Under the pieces are notes generated by a model that did not search any database, had not been told where the DNA came from, and was given only the letters and a program-made list of their open reading frames with translations. Shown here one piece after another: positions 1-6,280 of a DNA stretch of 6,280 bases. Origin of the DNA: Bacteroidota bacterium (lineage in GTDB: Bacteria; Bacteroidota; UBA10030; UBA6906); NCBI GenBank assembly GCA_016844425.1, contig JAERML010000088.1, positions 1 to 6,280 on the forward strand, read 5' to 3'. Within the stretch, counting starts at the first letter, position 1. Every line of letters starts with the position of its first letter. A program made the position numbers and the translations under genes.

Positions 1-1
1 G

Positions 2-1363
2 CTTCAATGTTCGGAAGGGTGCTGCGAGTATCAAGTCGTGCAGATGATGAATGGTCATCCTGTGTTCTTCAACGCGCTCGCGGAGTTTCTGGCAAAGGAA
101 AACGAGATCAAGATTCTGAAAGGCAATCACGATATTCAGCTTTACTGGCGGGGAGTGCGGCGTCAAATCGTCGAACGCCTCGCTGACCTCGTCCAACGGA
201 AAGGGAAGCAACTCGCAGATAGCCAAGTCGAATTCCTGCCATGGTTCTACTATGTTCCAGATTTGTTGTATGTTGAACATGGCAACCAGTACGAAGCCAC
301 AACCGCCTTCAGGAATTTTCTCCACCCGCTTCTTCCGTCGTCGAACAGGAAGCGTCGCAACCCACAGTTGGAACTCGATCTCTCCAGTTTCCTTGTCCGG
401 TACCTTACGAACCGCCTCGAGCCAGTAAACCAGCTTGCAGATAACATCCGCCCGCTGACGAAGTACTACGGCACAATGTGGAAGGCACACCCGTATGAGA
501 TGATCGACACTCTTGGCACAGCCTTCAGGTTTGTGCTCAAGGCGTTTCGCAAGGCACGGGAGCAAAAACGCGGGGCAAAGAGCGCGGAGTATGAACAGAT
601 CCGGGATACGAACTCCACCATGATTCATAAACAGGCTGGTCGGTTTTCTGATGACGATCCTGATGTGGAACGATGGCTGGAAACTCATCTTGTGCGCTTC
701 GACGAGAGGAGAATGGATCCTATTCTTGAGGGAGGAGCGTTCAAGTTTGTCTGGGAGATCATCAAGGAAGCGTCGAAAAGTTTGAAGATCCTACTGCCGC
801 TCTATGTTCTGACATTTATCCCAGACTTGGGCAAACGGATTCTCGACCTCATCAACGGGACCGGCATAACCTGGTTGATCGCCGCGGCAGAGTTTCTGTA
901 CAAGTTCAATCTGTTGCATGTTCTTGTCATTGTCATCGTCGGACTTGCGCTGATCTGGCTTGTGCGGAAGCGGAGGCGTTCCAAATCGAAAGATAAGAAA
1001 AGCACGGTGCTTCCGGACGTGAGCATGGAGATGCGAGAACATGCAAAGTACATTGTGCAGAGCCTCGGTGTCAAGTACGTAACGTTCGGACATACGCACT
1101 ACGTTGACACCTGCGCTCTGCATGGCGATGCTCGTTACTTCAACACGGGAACGTGGATGGGGATCTATGAGGAGCAGGAACAACTCTATCGCGAGGCCCA
1201 TCAGTTTACATTCCTCTTGGTGGAGAATTCGGAACCCTGGCTCTTGCGCTGGAACGCAGACGGCAAGACTCCGTTCCCAGTTGTTGTCGTCGATAATGCT
1301 CCTCCTCTCTCGGGCGAGGAGGACAGCATTGTGAAGCTTGTGATGAAAGCAGTGAAACTGTAG
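2..1363 (+). CDS. Membrane-inserted calcineurin-like metallophosphoesterase (LpxH/COG2908-like), 5' end missing
   Basis: The reading frame is open to the left edge, so the true start and the first metal-binding motifs (DxH and GDxxD) lie outside the window; the GTG at 38 is only the first possible start inside it. Visible family motifs are GNHD (122-133), EHGN (275-286, in the place of the usual GHD/HGD block) and GHTH (1088-1099), followed by NTGTW (1142-1156). This order is that of calcineurin-like phosphoesterases, which use two metal ions to hydrolyse phosphoesters or pyrophosphates; the spacing recalls UDP-2,3-diacylglucosamine hydrolases. Unusually, about 270 codons separate EHGN from GHTH. 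That insert holds hydrophobic segments near 788-830, 863-903 and 911-963, the last followed by a KRRRSKSKDKK-type basic stretch. The two catalytic halves must lie on one side of the membrane, so an even number of crossings is expected. The substrate is unknown. Gene 2 starts 15 bp downstream, implying cotranscription. Confidence 0.85.
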   Translation, partial: LQCSEGCCEYQVVQMMNGHPVFFNALAEFLAKENEIKILKGNHDIQLYWRGVRRQIVERLADLVQRKGKQLADSQVEFLPWFYYVPDLLYVEHGNQYEATTAFRNFLHPLLPSSNRKRRNPQLELDLSSFLVRYLTNRLEPVNQLADNIRPLTKYYGTMWKAHPYEMIDTLGTAFRFVLKAFRKAREQKRGAKSAEYEQIRDTNSTMIHKQAGRFSDDDPDVERWLETHLVRFDERRMDPILEGGAFKFVWEIIKEASKSLKILLPLYVLTFIPDLGKRILDLINGTGITWLIAAAEFLYKFNLLHVLVIVIVGLALIWLVRKRRRSKSKDKKSTVLPDVSMEMREHAKYIVQSLGVKYVTFGHTHYVDTCALHGDARYFNTGTWMGIYEEQEQLYREAHQFTFLLVENSEPWLLRWNADGKTPFPVVVVDNAPPLSGEEDSIVKLVMKAVKL

Positions 1364-1378
1364 GATTGGAGAGCAAGC

Positions 1379-2299
1379 ATGAACAGTTCAGCCATCAAAG
1401 CCGCTCTTGTGTGTTTGATGTTCTTTAGTCTCGCCGGCTGTGGAATGTTCAAGGGAATTGGAGAGGACTTCGGCGGCGGATTGGCCAAGGGCGCAGTGGA
1501 TTCACTCGATACGCCTCAACGGGTCGAGAAACTCAACAGCGTCATCGATTCGTTGATTGCGGTACTTGGGGTAGCTGCGAAACGCGAGGTGCCGTCGATG
1601 CTCGACACGCTGCAGATTCGCGCCAGGGTCGAGGAAATTGCCGAACTTCTGAAACACGACATAAAACAGGTTCGTGATGATCTGGTGGGGACGCGAACGC
1701 AGGGACCTCTGCTGGCATTGCGCGACTCGCTCCTTGGTGCGAAGACGAATGCGGCAGTGCAAGCACTTGTAGATAGCATGTTGGTAGTAGTTCTCAGTAC
1801 ACGTACTGTCGAACGGGCCGGGGCGCTCAGGGATGAGCTTCTGGGTCCGAAAACAAAAGAGGCAGTGAGTTCCATTGTCGATAGCGCCATGATGAGTCTC
1901 GCGAGGCGGTACGAGCTTGACCTCTCGCCCGCATTGCAGGGAGACCTCGATGTCATTAGGAAATACGCGAAGGAACTGCTGATCACTCTTGGCGTGGTGG
2001 CTATTGCCATTGTCGGGTATTTCTGGTGGCAGAAGACAAAATACCGAAAGACTGTCGCCATTCTTGCTCAACAGATCAATGAGATCCCGGATCAAGAGCT
2101 GTACGATAATCTGACCCTGAGCATCCGGCGAAACGCGCAAGTATCCGGCGTTGAGCCGTTGCTGCGAAAAACGCTCGCTCAACACGGTCTCCTCGGCGTT
2201 GAGAGCTGGAGACCCACGAGAAAAGAGGACTCGCGACACTCGGCGGGAGGAAACGGAAGTACTGTACCTGAGCCTCAAGGAGGAGCAGAGCATGGATGA
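1379..2299 (+). CDS. Lipoprotein with a C-terminal membrane helix (spanin-like topology), function unknown
   Basis: This 306-residue protein is not a family I recognise. Its N-terminus is a clear lipoprotein signal: Lys7, a hydrophobic core, then the lipobox LAGC with Cys21, followed by Gly (no Asp at +2, so outer-membrane sorting is allowed under the E. coli rule). Residues about 45-195 look almost wholly helical and contain a recurring L/V-R-D-x-L-L/V-G motif at residues 98, 114 and 150. Residues 200-217 (LLITLGVVAIAIVGYFWW) form one strong membrane helix followed by K/R-rich sequence, so the last 90 or so residues are probably cytoplasmic. The tail ends in low-complexity G/S/P/E sequence that also carries the ribosome site of the next gene. 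The start ATG is preceded by GGAGAG (1368-1373) at a normal distance. It overlaps gene 3 by 8 bp. A phage-type unimolecular spanin or an inner-membrane lipoprotein scaffold are both possible. Confidence 0.85.
   Translation: MNSSAIKAALVCLMFFSLAGCGMFKGIGEDFGGGLAKGAVDSLDTPQRVEKLNSVIDSLIAVLGVAAKREVPSMLDTLQIRARVEEIAELLKHDIKQVRDDLVGTRTQGPLLALRDSLLGAKTNAAVQALVDSMLVVVLSTRTVERAGALRDELLGPKTKEAVSSIVDSAMMSLARRYELDLSPALQGDLDVIRKYAKELLITLGVVAIAIVGYFWWQKTKYRKTVAILAQQINEIPDQELYDNLTLSIRRNAQVSGVEPLLRKTLAQHGLLGVESWRPTRKEDSRHSAGGNGSTVPEPQGGAEHG
1670..1891 (+). repeat. Degenerate protein repeats inside the lipoprotein gene
   Basis: Three related units start at residues 98, 114 and 150 of the lipoprotein. Each opens with R-D followed by an acidic or small residue, then L-L/V-G-x-K/R-T. 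The second and third units match best and continue into A-V-x-x-x-V-D-S (residues 126-133 and 162-169). Spacing between units is 16 and then 36 residues, so the middle unit shares residues with the first. The pattern fits a helical rod grown by internal duplication; the DNA has diverged beyond an obvious direct repeat. Confidence 0.55.
2277..2283 (+). promoter_or_regulatory. Strong ribosome binding site inside gene 2 for the GH46-like hydrolase
   Basis: AAGGAGG lies 8 bases before the ATG at 2292. It decides the start of the hydrolase: the frame stays open upstream to 2151, but those codons overlap the lipoprotein gene and do not resemble the family. The site sits inside the last codons of the lipoprotein gene, so ribosomes ending that gene can load directly on this one, which suggests translational coupling. 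Confidence 0.85.
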
Positions 2300-3209
2300 A
2301 CTGCAGAAAAAAACCGCACAGGGGATCGTCAACATCTTTGAGACAGGGAAGGTTCTGGGTGAGTACGGAAGAGTGACCTTGCTTCCCGGAGATAGCGGAC
2401 ATCTCACGTATGGTCGCTCACAGACGACTCTCGCAAGCGGCAACCTTTATTTGCTTGTGAAGTCGTATTGCGATCAAGGCGGGGCGACGCTCAAGGATGG
2501 TTTGCGTCCATTTCTTCAGCGACTAAGTGTCCGTGATCTCTCGCTTGATCATGAGGTACTGCTTCGTGATCTTCTCGCCCGTGCCGGCAACGACCCGGTC
2601 ATGCGAGACACACAGGATAGATTCTTCGACCGGGTGTACTGGAAACCGGCCATGGATTTTGCGGCGGCAATACAGATCGCCTCTCCGCTTGGGGTTGCCG
2701 TGGTCTACGACAGCTGTATTCACGGCTCGTGGATTCGCATGCGTGACCGGACGATCAACCAGTTCAAGAAGCCTCCTGACATAAACGAGAATATCTGGAT
2801 CGGCCACTATGTGGACGAACGGAAGGATTGGCTTGCCACTCACCCGAATGCTCTCCTGCACCGCACGGTGTATCGGATGGATGCGTTTCGAGATCTGATC
2901 AAAAACAACAAGTGGAACCTCGCGCTGCCGGTACGAGTTCGAAACATCGACATCACGGAACAGTTGCTTCAAGTTGAAGAGCCTGTCGTTGCATCGGCCC
3001 ATGACCCAGCCGACAGAGTGCTCCTCCTGAAAACTCCTCGCATGCATGGAGAGGATGTCCGGCGTGTGCAGCAGGCCCTGAAGCTCGCTTCCCCCGATGG
3101 CATCTTCGGGCCGCAGACTGCCCAAGCGGTGGCGCGGTTTCAGGCATCGAAGGGTCTGCGCGCAGACGGCATAGTCGGTCCGGCCACCGTTGCCGCGCTC
3201 GGCTTGTAA
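2292..3209 (+). CDS. GH46 chitosanase-like glycoside hydrolase with C-terminal peptidoglycan-binding domain
   Basis: This 305-residue protein has two domains. Residues about 1-235 resemble glycoside hydrolase family 46 (chitosanases with a lysozyme-like fold): Glu17 in NIFETG and Asp34 in PGDSGHLTYG have nearly the spacing of the catalytic Glu22/Asp40 pair of Streptomyces N174 chitosanase, DRFFDRVYW (109-117) fits the conserved DRVYFDPA block, and YDSCIHG (139-145) fits the YDAIVMHG block. Residues about 253-305 form a PG_binding_1 domain with the usual DGIFGPQT and DGIVGPAT repeats. The likely role is cleavage of a glucosamine-containing wall or extracellular polymer, possibly peptidoglycan glycan strands. 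There is no signal peptide or membrane helix, as in endolysins that depend on another protein to reach the wall. The start at 2292 is set by AAGGAGG and overlaps the lipoprotein gene by 8 bp. Family is fairly certain; substrate is not. Confidence 0.88.
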   Translation: MDELQKKTAQGIVNIFETGKVLGEYGRVTLLPGDSGHLTYGRSQTTLASGNLYLLVKSYCDQGGATLKDGLRPFLQRLSVRDLSLDHEVLLRDLLARAGNDPVMRDTQDRFFDRVYWKPAMDFAAAIQIASPLGVAVVYDSCIHGSWIRMRDRTINQFKKPPDINENIWIGHYVDERKDWLATHPNALLHRTVYRMDAFRDLIKNNKWNLALPVRVRNIDITEQLLQVEEPVVASAHDPADRVLLLKTPRMHGEDVRRVQQALKLASPDGIFGPQTAQAVARFQASKGLRADGIVGPATVAALGL

Positions 3210-3262
3210 CGCGAATAGAGAACAGAATTCACCAGACATTCAATCACCTGGAGTACTCAGCC

Positions 3263-4144
3263 ATGGATCATCCTGAAATCTTCGAGCCGCTGGACAAATG
3301 GCCTGACGGTGTTGTGGACTTCCCCGAATCGCTTCAGGGAAAGATCCGCTACGACCCGGAAAAGAAGAGGCTCGTATTGGTCGACGCCTTGTTGAAAGAG
3401 GAGTTGGAACAACTACTCAAAATGTCTTCAGACCCGGCGTTCGTCGGCGCTGTCAAGCGCTTGGACGCTCGCTACAATGAACTCCTTGGCAACCTCCGAT
3501 TCAAAGAAGAGGATGACTCGGGATTTGTAACAGAAAAAATTGCCGGCATGAAGAGATACGTTCATATTTTCCTGTTGCTGTGGTTCGTTGCCCTTGGCGG
3601 GGGTGCGATCTATGTCCTTATTTACCACTGGCCTGAGCCTCGGCTGCTTCCTGATGGAAGGAGTCAAGCTGTTGACTCAGAAAAAACAGGCCCGGCAGAT
3701 TCGGCGCGATCGGAAAGAAACGATGTGACTGATGCCGCAGGCAATCCCCTGTCTCAGCGCCTCATCATGAGTCTTGTTCTTGCTGCCGGCGTTCTCGGAC
3801 GATCACTTGTAGGGCTGACGTCTCTTGTGTGGTTCCGGGCGCACCGAAGGCTGTTCAAGTCATGGACTCTTTGGTACTTTGCCCAACCGTTGATTGCAGG
3901 GATGCTTGCCGAGGTGTTCTACATAGTAGTGCGGGCGGGATTCCTGACTCCGAATTCGACAGTGAATCTGTACGGGGTTGTCGCGATCAGCGGGTTGGTG
4001 GGGATGTTCACCCGCGAGGCAATGGACAAGCTCTCAGACGTCTTCAAAACGCTGTTTGCATCAAAGACTGGAGAAACCAACGAGGGGAAGGCAGTGACAA
4101 CAAAGACGGTGGAAGAGAATGGGCCGCAGCCACGGGCAGAGTGA
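3263..4144 (+). CDS. Four-helix membrane protein with an N-terminal LP-x-K-x-x-YD module, function unknown
   Basis: This 293-residue protein has no named family that I can assign. Residues 20-72 match a recurring pattern I recall from many large bacterial proteins: a short strand pair around KIRYDPEKKRLVL, then a helical E-x-x-x-LL-x-x-SxDPAF-x-x-A stretch. Membrane segments follow at about 102-121, 167-191, 203-223 and 236-249. The last three carry G-x-LGRSLVGLTSLVW, SWTLWYFAQPLIAG, LAEVFYIVVRAGF and GLVGMFTREAMDKLSDVFKTLF, a signature I recall from an uncharacterised widespread membrane family. The loop at 124-166 is polar. The C-terminal tail (about 266-293) is charged and low in complexity. 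The ATG has a modest TGGAG site (3249-3253). It lies 53 bp after the hydrolase and probably shares its transcript. Its 3' end is duplicated at 5736-5870. A holin role is conceivable from position, but the protein is larger and more complex than typical holins. Confidence 0.82.
   Translation: MDHPEIFEPLDKWPDGVVDFPESLQGKIRYDPEKKRLVLVDALLKEELEQLLKMSSDPAFVGAVKRLDARYNELLGNLRFKEEDDSGFVTEKIAGMKRYVHIFLLLWFVALGGGAIYVLIYHWPEPRLLPDGRSQAVDSEKTGPADSARSERNDVTDAAGNPLSQRLIMSLVLAAGVLGRSLVGLTSLVWFRAHRRLFKSWTLWYFAQPLIAGMLAEVFYIVVRAGFLTPNSTVNLYGVVAISGLVGMFTREAMDKLSDVFKTLFASKTGETNEGKAVTTKTVEENGPQPRAE
4037..4144 (+). repeat. Direct repeat, copy A (3' end of gene 4)
   Basis: This 108-base stretch ends exactly at the stop codon of gene 4 and recurs at 5763-5870 with a constant offset of 1726 bases, no gaps and 15 mismatches (about 86 % identity). 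The first part is best kept: 4040-4070 is identical over 31 bases. Weaker similarity continues upstream to about 4019 (7 mismatches in 18 bases). It encodes the end of the last conserved helix (VFKTLFASKT) and the low-complexity tail. Confidence 0.93.
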
Positions 4145-4280
4145 AGGTGCGAGTGGATATTCATAGGGCAGTGCGGCGAAGAAAGCGTGGATCAGGGGTA
4201 CCCTAATGGGTTGGCTACGAGTTCCCAATTCCACGAGACGTACGAAATCGACAGTGGTTCATTTCAAACAGGAGGCTTCC
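4145..4280 (+). other. Intergenic leader between genes 4 and 5
   Basis: This 136-base gap has no convincing terminator hairpin or promoter. It contains an 8-base palindrome (GGGTACCC at 4196-4203), too short to interpret. An ATG at 4206 is in frame with gene 5 but lacks a ribosome site and would put 25 polar residues before the signal sequence, so I treat it as leader. A few bases just after the stop of gene 4 (AAGGTGCGAG) resemble the sequence after the stop of the duplicated copy (AAAGGTGGAG). Confidence 0.5.
4270..4275 (+). promoter_or_regulatory. Ribosome binding site that sets the start of gene 5
   Basis: AGGAGG sits 5 bases before the ATG at 4281. The resulting N-terminus is a good signal sequence, whereas the in-frame ATG at 4206 has no such site. 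This favours the shorter 463-residue product. Confidence 0.8.
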
Positions 4281-5672
4281 ATGACCACACATCACTTCAT
4301 ACTTCTCACGATGTTCATTGGGTTGCTTTTGGCAGGAACCAGCGATGCTCTTCTTGCTGATCCTCCTGCGCTCACAGTCTATGATCGATTTCAGGAGCAG
4401 CTGACCGAATCAAGAAACACGTTTGATAAGTGGAGCCTGAACGGCACAATCATCGTCACACTCACCTTCCTCACTGCTATTTTCGGGGCGGTTTCAGGCT
4501 GGCTTCACCAACGAGATGATAAGGCCAAGGGGAAACGGATTTCGGTGATGTGGAAAGTTGCAATCGCCTTGTGCGTCACCATCTTCACGGCCGTTAACAG
4601 CACTCTCTTCGAAGCTGACCACCGCACCTACTGGCGTCTCTCTGATGAAGGGCATGACTTGGCTTGGAAGATAGACGTTGACCTGGCATCATATCAGAAT
4701 GCAAGCGATGAAGACCGGCAGGAGTTCTTCCAAGGTATCCAGGAGAACTTTGCCAAGGTCCAGGAGCTGAAGCGCTCACTCCACGACAAAAAAGCGGGCG
4801 GCTTCATTGCGGCCAGTCATTCGGATGGAGTGTTCACGAGCGTCGCGCTTGCCAGCGGTCGGGAGCCGAGGCCGTCGTGGGTGACTCGCCTCCCCAACGA
4901 CTATGGCAACATCTATTGTGTCGGGGTCGATTACGACAACTCGATCAAGCTGGCAACGGTGGCGTCGCTGGAGGATGCAAAACGGAACTGCACGGCATAC
5001 TTGATTGTGCTCTTTGAAAGCATGGTTCCCTCAACTGACTCCGGCGCCAAGTACCAGGATATTGCGAACTTCATCGTGTCATCCAGAAGTGTCCGTGTCG
5101 CAGACACCTATTATGAGTACGACCAGAGTACGAAGCGGTACACTTATTACACTCTGCTGCAGATTCAGCGTGAGCTTGCCCAGAATGATATTGCCTTTTT
5201 CACGGAGACGAAACAGCAATCATCCATGCGGACCGGCTCTCTGGGAGACATCATAATGAAAGCCCGAGGTCTGCCGGAGGATTTCTACTGGAGGCGAGAG
5301 CAGGAGTTTCGAAAGAAGGTGCCTTTCTCCGTAAGGTTGACCGACATGCAGAAGCGGCTCTGGTATGCCATTGGACTGAGAAAGGAGGGAAACCTCAAGA
5401 AAGCCTCCACGGAGTTCTCGTATATCGTGAAGAAGGACAGCACCATGATCGAGGCATGGTACAACCTCGCGCTTGTTGCCGCGGGGCAAAAGGACTCTTC
5501 CGGCGCAACAAAGGCGTACACCCGTGGTGTGCGTGTTGCAGAACTTAAGAGGCTCGACCATCCCTATCTGTGGAGGGATTACGGGCTCTGGCTATACAAG
5601 AGTGCGAGCAAGTTGGCGCTGGAGTATCTGAAACGCTCTTCCCCTCCCGAGGCAAACCCAAGAGGGATGTAA
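4281..5672 (+). CDS. Membrane-anchored envelope protein with LPP20-like region and C-terminal TPRs
   Basis: The 463-residue product starts with a hydrophobic signal sequence (residues 6-19), with a possible cleavage site near Ala26. Two further membrane segments follow at about 56-75 and 90-106, joined by a short basic loop (HQRDDKAKGKR) that should be cytoplasmic; the large C-terminal part would then be periplasmic. Residues about 198-300 (PSWVTRLPNDYGNIYCVGV, then ADTYYEYDQSTKRYTYYTL) recall the LPP20-like envelope domain, in which a PxW segment is followed by an IYxVG strand, an alanine-rich helix and a tyrosine-rich edge; I rate this moderate. Residues about 357-424 form two TPR-like helix pairs (GNLKKASTEFSYIVKKDS, then AWYNLALVAAGQKDSSGA), usually protein-binding. 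No catalytic motif was seen. The likely role is an envelope scaffold or partner for the neighbouring membrane proteins. It follows gene 4 after 136 bp. Confidence 0.8.
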   Translation: MTTHHFILLTMFIGLLLAGTSDALLADPPALTVYDRFQEQLTESRNTFDKWSLNGTIIVTLTFLTAIFGAVSGWLHQRDDKAKGKRISVMWKVAIALCVTIFTAVNSTLFEADHRTYWRLSDEGHDLAWKIDVDLASYQNASDEDRQEFFQGIQENFAKVQELKRSLHDKKAGGFIAASHSDGVFTSVALASGREPRPSWVTRLPNDYGNIYCVGVDYDNSIKLATVASLEDAKRNCTAYLIVLFESMVPSTDSGAKYQDIANFIVSSRSVRVADTYYEYDQSTKRYTYYTLLQIQRELAQNDIAFFTETKQQSSMRTGSLGDIIMKARGLPEDFYWRREQEFRKKVPFSVRLTDMQKRLWYAIGLRKEGNLKKASTEFSYIVKKDSTMIEAWYNLALVAAGQKDSSGATKAYTRGVRVAELKRLDHPYLWRDYGLWLYKSASKLALEYLKRSSPPEANPRGM

Positions 5673-5718
5673 ATGCGTCATGGTCGTTCTTCCGAGGGTC
5701 GACAGATGATGCATGTGT

Positions 5719-5735
5719 GAGAACGCAGACATTCT
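5719..5735 (+). repeat. Short direct repeat, copy 1
   Basis: The sequence GAGAACGCAGACATTCT matches GAGAATGCAGACATCCT at 5914-5930 in 15 of 17 bases, 195 bases apart. Both copies are followed about 12-13 bases later by GATTGA. The pair brackets most of the gene-4 remnant and may mark a duplicated leader segment, though chance cannot be excluded. Confidence 0.5.
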
Positions 5736-5870
5736 ATTCAACAAGCGATTGACATACTGAAAGAAGTCTTCAAAACGCTGTTTGCATCAAAGACTGAGGA
5801 AACCAACGAAGGGAAGGCAGTGACAACAACGACGGCGGAGGAGAGCGAGGGGCAGGCAAGGGCGGAGTGA
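5736..5870 (+). pseudogene. Remnant of the 3' end of a gene-4-like membrane protein gene
   Basis: The frame ending at the TGA 5868-5870 encodes the last 40 or so residues of a gene-4 homologue. From 5745 it reads AIDILKEVFKTLFASKT and continues into a low-complexity tail ending QARAE, aligned without gaps to gene 4. In this frame a TGA at 5718-5720 lies just upstream and no ATG, GTG or TTG occurs in between, so no normal protein can start here. All membrane segments are missing. Because the tail is intact while everything upstream is gone, it looks like what is left of a second copy after deletion, or the scar of a recombination event. It was not inactivated by frameshift within the retained part. 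Translation from a rare ATT or CTG codon is unlikely without a ribosome site. Confidence 0.8.
5763..5870 (+). repeat. Direct repeat, copy B
   Basis: This is the counterpart of 4037-4144: 108 bases, no gaps, 15 mismatches, with the same reading frame and the same stop position. Differences concentrate in the low-complexity tail after 5828. The two copies flank gene 5 completely, so homologous recombination between them could in principle delete or duplicate that gene. Confidence 0.93.
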
Positions 5871-5913
5871 AAGGTGGAGCGATGATGATCGGCGTAGGCG
5901 AAATTGCGCGCAA

Positions 5914-5930
5914 GAGAATGCAGACATCCT
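5914..5930 (+). repeat. Short direct repeat, copy 2
   Basis: GAGAATGCAGACATCCT is the second copy of the 17-base motif at 5719-5735, with 2 mismatches. It lies in the leader of gene 7, ending 31 bases before its ATG. Confidence 0.5.
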
Positions 5931-5961
5931 TACACACTCATTGATTGAAGGGAGCAACATC

Positions 5962-6280
5962 ATGAAGGTAGTTCGCTTTGACGCAAATGGTGGCCGGCTG
6001 ATGATTTGCATCGAGGTTGGCCATGCACAAATTGGGTCGTACAGGTTAAGACTCTGGGAGCCGGGTAGCAACACGGTGGTCCTTGACGAGAGTGGGAACA
6101 ATCAGAACCCAAACGACGATTGTCATGAGCTCCCTCTCCCAACGGCAAACAATGATGGAAGGCTAGTGCAGTGTGAATTCAGTGTATTGTCGCCTGCTCC
6201 GGCACCGGGAGACATGTACTCTGTTGCGATGGTCTTCAAACAAGGTGGAAACACCATCGAGACTGTGTCAGAATCTGGGC
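5962..6280 (+). CDS. Start of an unrecognised, probably beta-rich protein (3' end missing)
   Basis: An open frame begins at the ATG 5962 and runs without a stop to the right edge, giving 106 complete codons. It is preceded by AAGGGAG (5948-5954) at a normal distance, which supports this start. The protein begins MKVVRFDANGGRLMICIEVG and continues with alternating hydrophobic and polar residues, G/N/P/D-rich turns and little predicted helix, as expected for a beta-sandwich. There is no signal peptide and no membrane segment in the visible part. I do not recognise the family and see no catalytic motif. The minus-strand frames opposite it are interpreted as shadows. Cotranscription with gene 5 is uncertain because the 289-base gap contains a gene remnant. 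Confidence 0.75.
   Translation, partial: MKVVRFDANGGRLMICIEVGHAQIGSYRLRLWEPGSNTVVLDESGNNQNPNDDCHELPLPTANNDGRLVQCEFSVLSPAPAPGDMYSVAMVFKQGGNTIETVSESG

Follow-up and report, generated by a model that had tools for sequence, protein, structure and literature searches.

Gene Organization and Layout of Gene 2

We analyzed a 6,280-nucleotide stretch of DNA (the window) from a Bacteroidota bacterium (assembly GCA_016844425.1, contig JAERML010000088.1, positions 1 to 6,280), from whose open reading frames (ORFs) six genes on the same (+) strand were selected. Gene 2 encodes a 306-residue protein with a predicted N-terminal lipid anchor and one membrane helix late in the chain, and it overlaps gene 3, which encodes a protein of glycoside hydrolase family 46 (GH46). 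A sequence-only reading had taken the pair for a lysis cassette, with gene 2 as a unimolecular spanin (u-spanin). In our best reading, gene 2 belongs to an uncharacterized family and is not a phage lysis protein. Tentatively, we regard it as a dual-anchored envelope protein of Bacteroidota, accessory to membrane enzymes of the metallophosphoesterase and GMC oxidoreductase families. The features of gene 2 are as follows.

1379..2299, + strand: gene 2, 306 residues, predicted lipidated envelope protein with a single helix; ATG at 1379, TGA at 2297-2299
1439..1441, + strand: codon TGT of Cys21 in the lipobox LAGC
1442..1972, + strand: spacer between the two anchors, residues 22-198, predicted helical with low confidence
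1670..1855, + strand: stretch with three copies of the motif LRDELLGxxT, residues 98-107, 114-123 and 150-159
1973..2029, + strand: predicted membrane helix, residues 199-217, from hydrophobicity and AlphaFold2 (AF2)
2030..2296, + strand: presumed cytoplasmic tail, residues 218-306, its first two thirds kept in relatives
2278..2283, + strand: ribosome-binding sequence AGGAGG of gene 3, within gene 2
2292..2299, + strand: 8-bp overlap of genes 2 and 3

The anatomy given in the sequence-only reading was confirmed, namely the lipobox at Cys21, the 8-bp overlap and the ribosome-binding sequence of the hydrolase gene inside gene 2. The membrane helix, previously placed at residues 200-217, corresponds to the single late hydrophobic segment of gene 2 at residues 199-217, and in the AF2 model, which is poor overall, the helix spanning residues 190-234 has the best scores. 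The distance from Cys21 to the helix amounts to 178 residues, in agreement with the roughly 180 mostly helical residues proposed earlier, and 89 residues follow the helix, close to the tail of about 90 residues that had been considered atypical of spanins. Positive residues after the helix would place this tail in the cytoplasm. The only cysteines of gene 2 are Cys12 and Cys21, and two of 23 relatives have one extra. No Rfam match was found for the window, promoter and terminator scans of it performed no better than on shuffled sequences, and PADLOC found nothing among the six window genes.

The Dual-Anchor Layout Is Shared by the Gene 2 Family

Forty-nine proteins, gene 2 itself included, match gene 2 at E ≤ 0.001. 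We aligned 23 rows, picked by ourselves from proteins and loci, with identities down to 22%. The lipobox cysteine is present in all 23, the spacer measures 176-217 residues and the tail 56-109 residues (median 65). A layout rule asking for a lipobox, a single hydrophobic helix late in the chain and no fewer than 40 residues of tail was applied to 308 ORFs of at least 150 residues from the fetched loci, a set that comprised some overlapping frames of locus L022 and 13 family members, the window's gene 2 being left out. The rule returned 11 ORFs, all of the gene 2 family. The predicted dual-anchor layout is thus confirmed as a family trait beyond chance.

The family is patchily spread, with matches in 9 of 395 Bacteroidota genomes and in 9 of 394 genomes of one family (two of them weak in each case). 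One of its carriers is the strain Flavitalea sp. BT771 (L001). Gene 2 had no match at E ≤ 0.01 in Pfam, PHROGs, NCBIfam or PADLOC, nor at E ≤ 10 among the sequences of the PDB, and 38 of its relatives gave three single weak Pfam matches. A plasmid origin was also considered and rejected, since the plasmid search found no relatives of gene 2 or gene 6.

A 16-Residue Repeat in the Spacer

The spacer contains a 16-residue repeat, composed of the motif LRDELLGxxT and six further residues. Over 23 spacers, the mean residue identity was 0.147 at a lag of 16 and 0.136 at a lag of 32, compared with a 99.9% shuffle maximum of 0.092; lags of 36, 43 and 27 slightly exceeded this maximum. The 24 proteins scanned have 0-6 motif copies each; a few of these copies fall by chance in the signal, membrane or tail parts of the protein. 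Spacer hydrophobicity has a strong period of 4.0 residues (4.7 vs 1.0 ± 0.2 in shuffles), with raised values at 3.7-3.8 residues (1.7-1.8) and no signal at 3.5 residues (1.2). Breaks containing glycine come back on the 16-residue repeat.

The AF2 model of gene 2 consists of helices only, broken near the repeat turns, with a predicted local distance difference test score (pLDDT) of 61.5 and a predicted template modeling score (pTM) of 0.30. A second structure model was worse than the first, and fold searches with the poor model returned nothing useful (best E 1.6 against viral structures and 7.0 against the PDB). Because of the breaks on the 16-residue repeat and the missing 3.5-residue signal, a single 180-residue helix or a classical coiled coil seems unlikely for the spacer. 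The helical character proposed by the sequence-only reading is retained at low confidence; the one long helix that could span a periplasm is disfavored. The modestly raised values at 3.7-3.8 residues may be compatible with a right-handed or mixed helical form, and the repeats may build either a long rod or a compact bundle.

Neighbors of Gene 2 in Other Genomes

Loci of gene 2 relatives were obtained from one scan of genome contigs and several whole-genome searches. We read 13 loci (L019-L028 and L071-L073) from 13 of the 17 matched genomes; the other four, with weak partial matches (G038, G317, G624, G636), provided short loci only. Families were tallied over 109 of 157 listed neighbor ORFs and over the best 25 of 130 Pfam and the best 25 of 30 PHROG families, leaving out gene 2 itself, the overlapping L022 frames and short or antisense frames. 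In the window, gene 2 is preceded by gene 1.

2..1363, + strand: gene 1, calcineurin-like metallophosphoesterase that begins before the window; its two motif regions are separated by a single hydrophobic segment

A metallophosphoesterase gene lies directly upstream of gene 2 on the same strand in five of the 13 loci (L019, L020, L021, L028, L072), at a spacing of 4-18 nt or with a 4-nt overlap; the spacing in the window is 15 nt. Four of these proteins (L019_08, L021_08, L028_13, L072_11), all encoded immediately before a gene 2 relative, are BLAST relatives of gene 1. Hydrophobic segments occur in four of the five, and the enzyme of L020 is of another subtype without membrane segments. The second recurrent neighbor is a GMC oxidoreductase, found 31-1271 nt from gene 2 in eight of the 13 loci, with N-terminal hydrophobic segments in seven of the eight proteins. 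As a rough guess from gene density, either neighbor would lie this near a random locus in a few per cent of cases at most.

The adjacency of genes 2 and 3 did not recur, as none of the 13 loci contains a GH46 gene. A search with the gene 3 protein in ten genomes carrying gene 2 gave no match; this search had no internal positive control, and the GH46 profile did match other genomes. Since the relatives of gene 2 at the loci read sit in Bacteroidota genomes beside membrane enzymes, the overlapping GH46 gene is probably not the usual partner of gene 2. At least one wall hydrolase was confirmed in the 13 loci, a glucosaminidase in L026 about 6 kb from gene 2. The relatives of gene 2 thus largely occur without a wall hydrolase nearby, the finding that the sequence-only reading had named as speaking against its own proposal. 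For five PHROG endolysin families and two integrase families a single member matched, and by eye these matches were ascribed to the L026 glucosaminidase and to one gene of L020. In L026, a run on one strand (9697-18735) comprises an MBL-HhH gene, the signal-less glucosaminidase, two membrane proteins, a DyP peroxidase, a P450 and a distant gene 2 relative. A gene 2 relative and a gene 3 relative both occur on contigs of 1822 bp, which come from different sources; we take this as chance.

Gene 3 Belongs to the GH46 Family

2292..3209, + strand: gene 3, ATG at 2292; GH46 domain at residues 14-214 and PG_binding_1 at 253-303; no export signal seen

Gene 3 matches PF01374 at 3.8e-14, over the cut-off, and its residues 4-219 match chitosanases in the PDB (7c6c, 6lwu; E 1.1e-14). 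Residues E17 and D34, which we take to be the catalytic acids of GH46, are kept in all 26 aligned relatives, and PDB entry 7c6d has an alanine at the position aligned with the conserved glutamate. The relatives mostly start near the same residue, with no export signal seen by eye. Gene 3 thus resembles GH46 chitosanases in its domain and both conserved acids, but differs in the added PG_binding_1 domain and the missing export signal, its activity being predicted only. As for the wall hydrolase without an export signal proposed earlier, the lack of a signal stands by eye, but the family is that of chitosanases, and a role at the wall is what we infer for it.

At E ≤ 0.001, 2437 proteins match gene 3, some perhaps via the PG-binding part alone, and the GH46 profile matches 147 of 395 genomes, mostly through that part. 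By our count, the GH46 part itself is matched in at least eight genomes, seven of which were read (not G098; the copy in G119 is broken). Three viral contigs carry GH46 genes, one of them in L049 (region 3671-10936) after tail genes (PhageMin_Tail, 9.1e-23), where an endolysin role appears plausible for the GH46-PG_binding gene. The family can therefore look endolysin-like, as the sequence-only reading had it, but a lysis cassette with gene 2 is unsupported. No full-length relative of gene 3 was found in 50,697 phage records, no phage gene was seen in the window, and we found no paper joining "glycoside hydrolase family 46" with endolysin. Relatives of GH46 on plasmids (Rhizobium, Pararhizobium, Microvirga) adjoin L,D-transpeptidase, DUF3616, caspase or IS genes; the neighbors of the Rhizobium and Pararhizobium copies (L060, L061) are an L,D-transpeptidase gene and a DUF3616 gene, and L060 has a caspase-family gene upstream as well.

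In three of eight genomes among the matches listed, less than 7 kb separates a GH46 gene from an eCIS_core or contractile sheath gene of an extracellular contractile injection system (eCIS). The distance to eCIS_core is 313 nt in G279 (L055, 9191-11074) and 6.6 kb in G174 (L054), and that to a sheath match is 6.0 kb in G123 (L052). GH46 may therefore serve as an effector or release enzyme of injection systems. A peptidoglycan-hydrolase toxin and peptidoglycan-binding toxins have been described among eCIS-associated genes (PMC8213781, PMC11297309). The three GH46 relatives share that setting; chitosan- and Glyco_hydro words are absent from the main text of the two papers. In the literature searched, one paper on eCIS mentions chitosanase, with the word only among its references, and no paper was found joining eCIS with GMC oxidoreductase.

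Across genomes, eCIS_core was found in 7 of 13 with gene 2 (G308 weak), 2 of 8 with GH46 and 10 of 50 others (G031 and G074 weak), and the sheath C-terminal family in 7 of 13, 2 of 8 and 11 of 50, respectively. Fisher tests of gene 2 genomes against the others gave p 0.03 for eCIS_core and 0.04 for the sheath, uncorrected for two tests, kinship and genome size. We considered gene 2 as an eCIS gene and provisionally rejected it, since in the genomes having both, several of them drafts, gene 2 is either on a different contig from the eCIS_core and sheath genes or over 300 kb away from them. The 6.3-kb window, a short stretch for this purpose, contains no eCIS gene.

Genes 4-6 and Shared Neighborhoods

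3263..4144, + strand: gene 4, membrane protein in which a simple scan shows three hydrophobic segments
4206..5672, + strand: gene 5, membrane protein that weakly matches TPR and may instead start at 4281
5962..6280, + strand: gene 6, small protein whose gene runs past the 3' edge of the window

In L053 and L057, which lack gene 2, the gene right after GH46 is a relative of gene 4, and in L054 GH46 is followed by a relative of gene 6. The GH46 protein P0052 (63%) and the gene 4 relative P0171 (56%) are probably neighbors, since both come from the same source and from a contig of the same size, 4793 bp; no gene 2 relative on a 4793-bp contig is among the matches listed. The gene 4 profile matched 19 of 247 genomes, in several cases with no more than its first 76 positions, and seven of the eight loci fetched have a recognizable gene 4. 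These relatives adjoin SIR2-like genes (L089, L091), FRG genes (L086, L090), an M15 peptidase gene (L089) and an NLPC_P60-like gene below the cut-off (L086), a setting that looks like that of defence or conflict genes. By eye, none of these gene types was recognized beside gene 4 in L085, L087 and L088. No gene 4 relative was found in phage records or viral pattern scans, and the plasmid search gave one distant match, in an unannotated Streptomyces stretch.

The window also contains a direct repeat of 127 nt (4019-4145 and 5745-5871, 83% identical). In its second copy, located past gene 5, the 3' end of gene 4 recurs in truncated form, as left behind by a duplication or recombination.

A Candidate Accessory Protein of Envelope Enzymes

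The layout, conservation, repeat and neighbors of gene 2 can be read from the sequences; the membrane bearing the lipid, complex formation, an enzymatic role and the enzyme substrates are our deductions. In the reading that we tentatively favor, gene 2 would be lipidated at its N-terminus, followed by a periplasmic region of short helices in 16-residue repeats, one helix through the inner membrane and, in the cytoplasm, some 65 residues that form a conserved domain. It would probably be produced together with the upstream metallophosphoesterase, gene 1, and most of the other loci read have a GMC oxidoreductase, usually with N-terminal membrane segments, no more than 1.3 kb away from it. Gene 2 would most likely be an accessory or scaffold subunit that holds membrane enzymes by its tail, while the lipid anchor and repeat region would link these enzymes to the envelope's outer part. 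The GH46-PG_binding gene and gene 4 would represent a different gene set, placed downstream of gene 2 in this genome.

Several observations weigh against this picture. Gene 1 matches PF00149 at E 0.004, below the curated cut-off, and the structure model of gene 2 is poor. L071-L073 have one neighborhood in common, so that the count for GMC genes comes closer to six of 11 independent cases. Both enzymes occur together in only four of the 13 loci (L019, L020, L021, L072), and neither was recognized in another four (L022, L025, L026, L027). Furthermore, the split between the gene 2 set and the GH46 set is not clean: relatives of gene 6 occur both in L020, a gene 2 locus, and in L054, a GH46 locus, L020_05 resembles L054_10 and L091_04, and L020_12 resembles L089_02. 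The neighborhoods of gene 2 and GH46 therefore have a pool of genes in common.

The main rival, to which we attach a lesser though still considerable probability, places both the lipid and the helix in the inner membrane, with the repeats turned back into a compact helical domain for the same enzymes. The helices broken on the 16-residue repeat, the missing coiled-coil signal at 3.5 residues and the membrane segments of the phosphoesterase and GMC partners would all suit this arrangement. A lipid anchor and membrane helices, both in the inner membrane, are combined in one protein in CyoA-type lipoproteins; CyoA differs in being an oxidase subunit. In E. coli, an aspartate following the lipobox cysteine acts as the signal for retention in the inner membrane. 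However, the corresponding residue in the gene 2 family is mostly not aspartate (G, S, N, K, V and others; Asp in L022), and the 4.0-residue period together with the raised values at 3.7-3.8 may fit an extended form.

Self-lysis encoded by the chromosome is improbable in our estimate. Gene 3 would cut the wall, gene 4 would let its product through the inner membrane and gene 2 would break the outer membrane as a spanin-like tether, either to release particles or as suicide upon infection. The overlap of genes 2 and 3 would fit, as would the signal-less wall-type hydrolases beside gene 4 relatives (GH46 in L053 and L057, M15 in L089 and the NLPC_P60-like gene of L086), the SIR2-like or FRG genes in L086, L089, L090 and L091, and the proximity of GH46 to eCIS_core or sheath genes described above. 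Nevertheless, gene 2 is missing from the GH46 loci read and GH46 from the gene 2 loci, gene 4 has no phage relative among the records and scans searched, and no such device is known to show lysis activity. We likewise give a low probability to a non-prophage device of genes 2-4, comprising a signal-less GH46-PG_binding wall cutter, a pass-through membrane protein and a single-chain tether between the two membranes whose length is built from repeats and which would finally break the outer membrane; the device would possibly release contractile-injection particles or kill infected cells.

The prototype u-spanin is an outer-membrane lipoprotein with a C-terminal membrane domain, the periplasmic domain of T1 gp11 is predicted to be mainly β-sheet, unlike the helical i-spanins, and none of 58 u-spanins surveyed has a periplasmic cysteine (PMC6139136). 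Gene 2 shares with the T1 gp11 family the order of lipoprotein signal, periplasmic region and one membrane helix, and with u-spanins the lack of cysteines between the anchors. It differs in its predicted helical repeat in place of β-sheet, a comparison that covers one u-spanin family of 13, that of gp11, and in its helix, which is not C-terminal but followed by the long tail conserved in the family. The 13 loci likewise show no lysis-cassette setting, although in the window a hydrolase gene without an export signal adjoins gene 2. Neither the 50,697 phage records nor the IMG/VR pattern scans, the latter reaching close relatives only, yielded a relative of gene 2. Gene 2 is thus like a u-spanin in anchor layout only, and we do not file it as one. 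A true phage or prophage u-spanin in a lysis cassette, very improbable in our view, is largely refuted by the chromosomal enzyme neighbors, the phage and viral searches, the long tail, the predicted helical spacer and the remoteness of the sheath genes. A literature search on tethers brought up nothing on the gene 2 family.

A lipobox and a membrane helix beside a hydrolase gene are accordingly insufficient to call a spanin. A separate lead comes from the signal-less wall-type hydrolases that recur with membrane proteins of the gene 4 type, SIR2-like or FRG genes and contractile-injection genes. Should gene 2 indeed connect the two membranes, it would represent a single-chain tether of cells that matches u-spanins in how its anchors are arranged, but is unrelated to them in its build. 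Such a tether would occur scattered among the Bacteroidota, in association with metallophosphoesterases and GMC oxidoreductases.

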